NCBI GenBank assembly: GCA_002708995.1
Contig: PAPT01000014.1
Span: 1 to 64,000, forward strand
DNA length: 64,000 nt
Direction: 5' to 3'
From: Geminicoccus sp.
GTDB taxonomy: Bacteria > Pseudomonadota > Alphaproteobacteria > UBA7985
Under the pieces are notes generated by a model. The model made no database searches. It was given only the letters and a program-made list of their open reading frames with translations, and was not told the origin of the DNA. This document shows positions 1-37,218 of this stretch, one piece after another. Within the stretch, counting starts at the first letter, position 1. The number at the start of each line of letters is the position of its first letter. Position numbers and translations under genes: made by a program.

Positions 1-342
<342 letters not shown>

Positions 343-35211: not shown

Positions 35212-36177
35212 CTATTCCAACTCTACCGCGTAGCTGTCGACCGGGCGTGGCGCGTCCACCAGTCCCTGCTCGATCAGAAACGCCTCGAAACGGGTGTAGC
35301 GGCCCCGGTCCATAGCCGCGGGACGCAGGGCGAAGCGCGGCAGGGTATCGCGCCAGGCGCGGCGGTTGAGCTCGTTGTCGAGCAGCTCTTCGCGCCCTTC
35401 GATGAACAGCGCCCAGCCCTCCTCGGGGTTGTTGACCATGAACTGCACCGCCGCTTCCAGCGCAGCGATGACACGCGGGATCGCCGGGGTATCGAGGCCG
35501 TCCTGTGCGGCGACGAGGATCAGCTCGTCGTAGCCGGGCACGCCGTTTTCCTCGGGGTAGAAGGCAACACCGGGGCGACCGGCGATATCCATCTGGTTCA
35601 GCTCGAAGTTACGGAAGGCACCGACAACGGCATCGACCTGCCCGGAATAGAGGGACGGGCTGAGCGAGAAGTTGACGTTGATCAACTCGACATCATCGAG
35701 GCTGAGCCCTTCGCGCGCCAGCATGGCGCCCAGCACAGCATCTTCAAAACCGCCGACGGAGAAGCCGATTTTGCGGCCCTTGAGGTCGGCAACCGACTTG
35801 ATCGGCCCGTCTTCGAGCGCCACGACAGTATTCAGCGGGGTCGCCACGAGGGTCGCGACCCGGACCAGCGGCAGGCCTTCGGCAACCTGAATATGCAGCT
35901 GCGGCTGGTAGGAGATGGCGAGCTCGGCCTGCCCGGCGGCAACCAGACGCGGGGGAGCAGATGGGTCGGCCGGCTCGATCAGTTCGACCTCAAGGCCCTG
36001 CGCTTCGAACAGCCCCAGTTCCTCGGCGACGAACAGCGGCCCGTGGTCGGGGTTGATGAACCAGTCGAGCAGGATCGTGACCCGTTCGGCGGATGCAGTC
36101 GATGCCGTCCCGAGCAGACTGATCAGTCCGGCGAGGCCGGTCAGACTGGCTGCGGCAAAGTGAGAGAGGGATTTCAT
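35212..36177 (-). CDS. thiY: ABC transporter substrate-binding protein, thiamine-pyrimidine precursor type (ThiY-like)
   Basis: A 321-residue NMT1/THI5-family periplasmic binding protein. A signal peptide ends at STASAE (about 1-31). LDWFINPDHGPLFVAEELGLF is the hallmark of ThiY proteins, which bind formylaminopyrimidine or HMP breakdown products of thiamine. It starts 3 bp after the permease gene. The TPP riboswitch in front of thiX supports a thiamine-related ligand; the exact pyrimidine is inferred. Confidence 0.88.
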   Translation of the reverse strand: MKSLSHFAAASLTGLAGLISLLGTASTASAERVTILLDWFINPDHGPLFVAEELGLFEAQGLEVELIEPADPSAPPRLVAAGQAELAISYQPQLHIQVAEGLPLVRVATLVATPLNTVVALEDGPIKSVADLKGRKIGFSVGGFEDAVLGAMLAREGLSLDDVELINVNFSLSPSLYSGQVDAVVGAFRNFELNQMDIAGRPGVAFYPEENGVPGYDELILVAAQDGLDTPAIPRVIAALEAAVQFMVNNPEEGWALFIEGREELLDNELNRRAWRDTLPRFALRPAAMDRGRYTRFEAFLIEQGLVDAPRPVDSYAVELE

Positions 36178-36180
36178 GGG

Positions 36181-36978
36181 TCAGGACTCCAGTGGTTTGA
36201 GGTCAGTAACCGACCAGGCCGATGCCCGGGCGGCGATAAGGGACACGAGGGCGTAGAGCCCCAGCGCCAGAATGATCATGAACACCACCGCCACCATCAT
36301 GCTGTCGGTGCGGGCGTTGATCTTGAGTTCGCGGAGGATGATGTAGCCGAGGCCATAGGCGCCCCCGACCTGCTGCCCGCCCACCAGCTCGCCAATGAAG
36401 GCGCCGATGGGGGCGATCGCGGCAGCGGATTTCAGCCCGATCAGCCCGCCGGGCAAGGCCAGCGGCAGGTAGGTGGTCCGCAGCAGCTGCCAGCGGTTGG
36501 CGCCGAACACCCGCGCGGCGTCGATGATGTCGCGATCGACGGCGCGCAATGCGCCCCAAAAAGCCATGGTGACGGGAAAGAACAGGATCAGCGTGGTCAT
36601 GGCGACCTTGGGCGCGAGCCCCCAGCCCAGCCACTGCACCAGCAGCGGGGCCAGCGCGAACACGGGAATGGCCTGCGAGATCACAAGCAGCGGTAACAGC
36701 CAGAACCGCAGCCCCCGCGACAGCGCCAGCAGCACGGTCAGCCACAGGCCCAGCGCAGCGCCGATGGCTAGACCGAGCACGACCGTGATTAGGGTCACGC
36801 GGAAGCCCTTGAGAAAGTATGCGGGGTTCTCGGTGAAGGCGGCCCAGACCAGATCCGGCGAGGGCAGGAGAAACCGCCCCTTGCCGGTCGCCGCTTCGAT
36901 CGCAAGCGCCGACAGCCACCAAAGGCCCAGAAAACCAAAAAAGAGAATGAGCGGCCGGGCCGCCCTGAGTGCTTTCAC
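36181..36978 (-). CDS. thiX: ABC transporter permease, thiamine precursor uptake (ThiX-like)
   Basis: A 265-residue inner-membrane permease with about six hydrophobic helices and a BPD-type EAA loop (WGALRAVDRDIIDAARVFGANRWQLL, where a Val replaces the usual residue before DRD). It partners with the adjacent ThiY. Two GTG codons stand in tandem (36981 and 36978). The second lies 7 nt after GGAGG and is preferred. That Shine-Dalgarno belongs to the TPP aptamer directly upstream, so translation should be shut by thiamine pyrophosphate. No ATPase gene is adjacent. Confidence 0.88.
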   Translation of the reverse strand: MKALRAARPLILFFGFLGLWWLSALAIEAATGKGRFLLPSPDLVWAAFTENPAYFLKGFRVTLITVVLGLAIGAALGLWLTVLLALSRGLRFWLLPLLVISQAIPVFALAPLLVQWLGWGLAPKVAMTTLILFFPVTMAFWGALRAVDRDIIDAARVFGANRWQLLRTTYLPLALPGGLIGLKSAAAIAPIGAFIGELVGGQQVGGAYGLGYIILRELKINARTDSMMVAVVFMIILALGLYALVSLIAARASAWSVTDLKPLES

Positions 36979-36979
36979 C

Positions 36980-37074
36980 ACGCTCCCTCCGCGAGTCCGA
37001 ACTCGATCAGGTGTTTAGGGTCGCGGCACGCCGCCTCTCAGCACCATCCGATCACGGATCGTGCTCCCCTGCGT
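36980..37074 (-). promoter_or_regulatory. TPP riboswitch (THI element)
   Basis: The minus strand carries the conserved THI-box parts in order and spacing: GGGGAGC (complement 37063-37069), CTGAGA (complement 37036-37041), GACCC, ACCTGATC (complement 37005-37012), a P5 stem CGAGT/ACTCG, and GGAGGGA (complement 36984-36990). P1 can pair ACGC (37071-37074) with GCGT (36980-36983). The terminal GGAGG is also the thiX Shine-Dalgarno and P1 touches the first GTG, so ligand binding would hide the start. The L5 loop is shorter than usual. Confidence 0.9.
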
Positions 37075-37218
37075 CTTGTCGTCCATTCCTACGGCAGCCA
37101 ACGGAGAAAGTAACGCGTTAGTTGCCTCGCAATCACACAAACTTCATGTGCGTTTTTGCCGGATCAGTCGTAACCTCTGCGGTGAAAGTATGCTGAACCA
37201 CTGCCGAGGATGATGTTT

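Follow-up and report, generated by a model that had tools for sequence, protein, structure and literature searches.

How can a riboswitch control a gene when no leader sequence separates the two? The question is raised by the minus strand of a 64,000-nucleotide (nt) stretch of Geminicoccus sp. DNA (contig PAPT01000014.1, positions 1 to 64,000; hereafter the window), where a thiamin pyrophosphate (TPP) riboswitch runs directly into a thiX-type transporter gene. There is no intervening sequence, and the first GTG of thiX starts within the P1 stem of the aptamer. A first-pass annotation had proposed direct occlusion of the start by the ligand-bound aptamer, without a separate expression platform. 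Sequence comparison supports this proposal as the best reading: we estimate a probability of roughly 80% that the element is a TPP riboswitch acting by direct translation attenuation, i.e. a direct OFF mechanism without a separate expression platform.

The identity of the element was addressed with the covariance search that the first-pass annotation had suggested. An Rfam scan of the whole window returned a single riboswitch, TPP (RF00059), at 37080-36967 of the minus strand, with 56.7 bits against a gathering score of 54.3 bits and an E-value of 1.8e-8. The alignment spans the full model (1-105) and is not truncated. As had been noted, the conserved segments CTGAGA, ACCTGATC and GCGGAGGGA follow each other in the correct order on the minus strand, both in the model alignment and in the sequence. 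The pyrimidine- and pyrophosphate-binding segments CUGAGA, ACCUGAUC and GCGnAGGGA that define the TPP class are all present, and a thiamin-related gene lies downstream, encoding an NMT1/THI5-like substrate-binding protein within the operon. We hold with very high confidence that this is a real TPP aptamer. Its parts are as follows.

36967 to 37080, minus strand: TPP riboswitch aptamer (full-length RF00059 match).
37071 to 37074, minus strand: P1 5′ strand ACGC, without variation in nine genomes (six of the genus, three of a sister family).
36980 to 36983, minus strand: P1 3′ strand GCGU, ending in the GU of the start codon GTG at 36981 (model alignment, consensus fold).
36992 to 37011, minus strand: P4 5′ strand (CCU, 37011-37009) and P5 hairpin (CGAG-UUCGGA-CUCG), from the model alignment.

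P1 is formed by the pairs A37074-U36980, C37073-G36981, G37072-C36982 and C37071-G36983. A G.G mismatch comes next, so that P1 is only 4 base pairs (bp) long. The two outermost pairs confirm that the GCGT strand enters the first of two tandem GTG codons, as had been predicted. In P4, the AGG (36988-36986) of the Shine-Dalgarno (SD) sequence pairs with CCU (37009-37011), and the initiation site is therefore occluded by P4 as well as by P1. One detail of the annotation had to be abandoned: loop L5, described there as shorter than the common TPP L5, is UUCGGA, six nucleotides that align without a gap to the uUAAUa of the model.

The position of the initiation site was compared across the genus. 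Five other genomes of the same genus carry a TPP element ahead of an orthologous thiX (80-98% identical), with the layout exactly kept.

36986 to 36990, minus strand: SD sequence GGAGG within the conserved 3′ aptamer segment GCGGAGGGA, its AGG paired with CCU in P4 (sequence, model alignment, consensus fold).
36979 to 36981, minus strand: first GTG, conserved in 6/6 genomes; G001, G003 and G005 have no other in-frame start nearby.
36976 to 36978, minus strand: second GTG (ATG in G002, GTG in G004, CCT in G001, G003 and G005).

GGAGG is separated by 4 nt from the GTG at 36981 and by the 7 nt noted earlier from the GTG at 36978. The start codon is thus no more than 15 nt from where the aptamer core ends, and no terminator or sequestering hairpin is found between aptamer and gene. 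On this last point the first-pass annotation was right about the interval itself, and needs correcting only in that a terminator-like hairpin occurs further on, inside the thiX codons (36965-36949). An SD-like AGGGA belongs to all TPP aptamers; what is telling is the position of the start codon, conserved in the six genomes, in all of which GCGGAGGGA is directly followed by GCGTG. In G001, G003 and G005, where codon 2 is CCT, the next in-frame ATG, GTG or TTG lies more than 50 nt downstream. Conservation of the thiX protein extends to its first residues, homology beginning at the P1 GTG. Translation in these three genomes must therefore start at this GTG, whereas in the window genome, G002 and G004 either codon may be used. 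Translation might instead begin at the second GTG (36978) or elsewhere, in which case P1 would belong to the leader and the start codon within it would be incidental. The 7-nt spacing is the better one, and G002 has its ATG at this very place. The CCT codons and the conserved N-terminal sequence argue against such a start, which we consider rather unlikely and which would hardly alter the mechanism, as initiation would still occur less than 15 nt away. The P1 strands ACGC/GCGU recur in the three sister-family genomes with the start 7-9 nt after GGGA; the P1 strand is thus kept whether it is coding or not.

Consensus folding was then used to look for structures competing with the aptamer. Given the six genus sequences and no supplied structure, RNAalifold produced the canonical TPP fold P1-P5 (plus hairpins inside the open reading frame, ORF), and 99.4% of the pair cells are standard for the named TPP structure. 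The P3 arm varies with compensatory changes while the core segments stay intact. No alternative fold common to the six sequences was found by consensus folding. A conserved anti-P1 or anti-sequestor fold was rejected, the minimum-energy, ligand-free folds of single sequences differing between the genomes of the genus, and the window sequence allows a longer pairing (CCGCG-A-CCCU with AGGG-AG-CGUGG) that is disrupted in the genomes G001, G003 and G005. Direct occlusion is the best reading because the start lies in P1 in 6/6 genus genomes and no alternative structure is conserved. Repression by TPP is what the riboswitch class and the role of the gene would predict. When TPP is plentiful, P1 and P4 would be locked, with the AGG of the SD sequence held in P4 and the GU of the start in P1, and thiXY would stay untranslated. 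When TPP is scarce, the short 4-bp P1 would open, the 30S subunit would win the SD sequence and the pyrimidine-precursor importer would be made.

A further structure within the coding region had to be weighed against this scheme.

36949 to 36965, minus strand: candidate hairpin in thiX codons 6-11 (arms GGGCGG/CCGCTC), able to form in all six genomes, where one pair shows compensatory change; statistically modest.

This is the sole 6-bp hairpin common to the six thiX genes across the whole gene. Its varying pair is G-C, A-U or G.U, through substitutions that change amino acids. When codon columns were shuffled, so early a hairpin arose in 1.7% of cases, and an early hairpin with a double change in 0.3%, in a test set up after the hairpin had been seen, on six related sequences with one doubly changed pair. 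Possible conservation of the hairpin is therefore only a weak additional lead. The start and hairpin comparison rests on thiX only. From set A2 the sequence L043, which proved to be the ATPase gene thiZ, was left out. We find improbable a fuller role of the start codon in the structure of P1, in which it would form, together with the hairpin, a compact switch whose platform lies wholly in aptamer and coding sequence, the RNA structure constraining both the GTG start and the early thiX codons.

Quite improbable, in our view, is an added platform in the coding region, with control partly transcriptional: the hairpin and the U-rich stretch that follows it in the window genome would act as a pause site or terminator, or the hairpin would exchange strands with the start-adjacent GAGCG. 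Besides the shuffling results, this could appeal to the TPP riboswitches of E. coli, where regulatory pausing occurs near the start codon, as is known for thiC (PMC5234074). Against it stand the post hoc nature of the test, the U-tract, which is poorly kept in G001, G003 and G004, and the number of terminator-like motifs in the region, one against 1.8 expected from shuffles. An intrinsic terminator as platform was rejected on the last two grounds. The pairing of GAGCG with the 3′ arm of the hairpin (CGYTC) as an anti-P1 is possible in 6/6 genomes, but a hand estimate puts it no higher than chance would for five matching nucleotides, and it was also rejected. A sigma-70 promoter scan gave no match.

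Three observations weigh against direct occlusion. First, the RF00059 score exceeds its threshold by little. Second, P1 is invariant across nine sequences and consequently offers no covariation evidence for the stem itself. Third, ligand-free folding of single sequences already pairs the SD sequence and the start, with the SD sequence unpaired at about 0.1; since it is paired even without ligand, folding energetics alone cannot show ligand-dependent access. The cost of opening SD sequence and start is about 7 kcal/mol (7-10 kcal/mol across the six genomes), like that of other close-start TPP genes. That this TPP element has decayed or does not function, as the narrow score and the short P1 might suggest, is scarcely credible given the core segments kept intact in six genomes, the compensatory changes in P3 and the position upstream of a thiamin-related transporter.

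The direct OFF switch would govern a short operon.

36181 to 36981, minus strand: thiX-type ATP-binding cassette (ABC) permease, 266 amino acids (aa) (PF00528 domain match; orthologues 80-98% identical in the genus).
35212 to 36177, minus strand: thiY-type substrate-binding protein (PF09084, NMT1/THI5-like; domain match and nearest solved structure 3ix1).

The structure 3ix1 is that of an N-formyl-4-amino-5-aminomethyl-2-methylpyrimidine binding protein (E 1.3e-37). The thiX-thiY naming is reasonable, the permease being named by association. A ThiXYZ system has permease, binding protein and ATPase together; no ATPase gene is adjacent here, hence the designation thiX-type only. ABC ATPases are numerous elsewhere in the window genome. 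G007, of the sister family, has genes for ATPase, permease and binding protein one after another behind its TPP element (thiZ-thiX-thiY). The thiX-thiY order and the upstream TPP element are thus shared with the ThiXYZ/ThiZXY pyrimidine ABC transporters under THI elements, from which the window genus differs by the missing adjacent thiZ. ThiC was not found in the window genome and ten relatives of the order (0/11), while control genomes gave matches; ThiD matched in 11/11 of these genomes (9 above the family cut-off) and TMP-TENI/ThiE in 10/11, several of the 11 genomes being incomplete. The absence of ThiC with ThiD and ThiE matches present fits pyrimidine salvage. Judged from gene content, the lineage would import the pyrimidine half of thiamin, with an apparent pyrimidine auxotrophy across the order sample. 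Elsewhere, a 16S rRNA gene runs off the end of the window, which holds its 5′ part at positions 1-342 (minus strand).

The same genome carries a second TPP riboswitch (G000:C25:40536-40643; L045 279-2961, L165; 63.5 bits). It precedes a gene for a tripartite ATP-independent periplasmic (TRAP)-type DctP solute-binding protein, followed by thiM (PF02110) and thiE (PF02581). The ATG of the DctP gene lies 11 nt after GGGA, so that this riboswitch is also of the direct type. A TRAP binding protein under putative TPP control could possibly belong to a thiazole or thiamin TRAP importer. There was no TRAP permease gene among the neighbouring ORFs checked, and a literature search found no paper linking a TRAP binding protein with TPP riboswitch control.

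How common is a start so close to the aptamer? We surveyed 63 TPP aptamers from the class Alphaproteobacteria, with each family represented in most cases by a single genome. A start was scored as close when the first ATG, GTG or TTG fell within 15 nt after GGGA and began an ORF that was 150 aa or longer or ran open to the contig end. Close starts were found for 35 of the 63 aptamers; the calls are mechanical and a few are doubtful, since GC-rich DNA can yield spurious upstream starts. Among 20 alphaproteobacterial loci that carry a thiX homologue, 13 have an upstream TPP element. By the same rule, the start is close in 12/13 of the further thi transporter operons with a TPP element, where it precedes either thiX itself or an ORF of about 250-260 aa ending next to thiX. 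These figures suggest that the direct design is common in Alphaproteobacteria, accounting for about half of the sampled TPP aptamers. At three loci (L084 2842-2950, L073 2860-2968 and L082 2843-2950) the TPP element stands directly ahead of thiX, with another GGAGG beyond the aptamer and the ATG 14 nt after GGGA; L084 is from the cultured Thalassobaculum litoreum DSM 18839.

The design itself is not new. Barrick & Breaker 2007 described riboswitches that bury the ribosome-binding site in the aptamer core as direct translation attenuation, with TPP a main user, a limit of 15 nt and the purine-rich conserved 3′ region substituting for the ribosome-binding site; the TPP version is attributed there to Rodionov et al. 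2002 (PMC2258182). A 2005 paper considered a riboswitch base stem overlapping the initiation site to be apparently confined to Actinobacteria (PMC1262725). The window element resembles the direct-type TPP riboswitches of Barrick & Breaker in the ribosome-binding site within the purine-rich 3′ segment, the start within 15 nt of the core and the lack of a separate platform. It differs in its alphaproteobacterial lineage and in its start codon, which enters P1 itself and is what is specific here. With the E. coli thiM and thiC riboswitches it shares the aptamer class and an expected control at the level of translation. Type III preQ1-I and other riboswitches with the SD sequence in the aptamer likewise make it part of the ligand-binding fold, but with another ligand, fold and family.

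The thiX element shows the smallest TPP riboswitch design as it occurs in nature: the same bases serve aptamer, ribosome-binding site and start codon. When first noted, this published design was described as typical of Actinobacteria and Cyanobacteria, and our survey suggests that it is also common in Alphaproteobacteria. As the close-start set includes the cultured T. litoreum, direct tests are possible.
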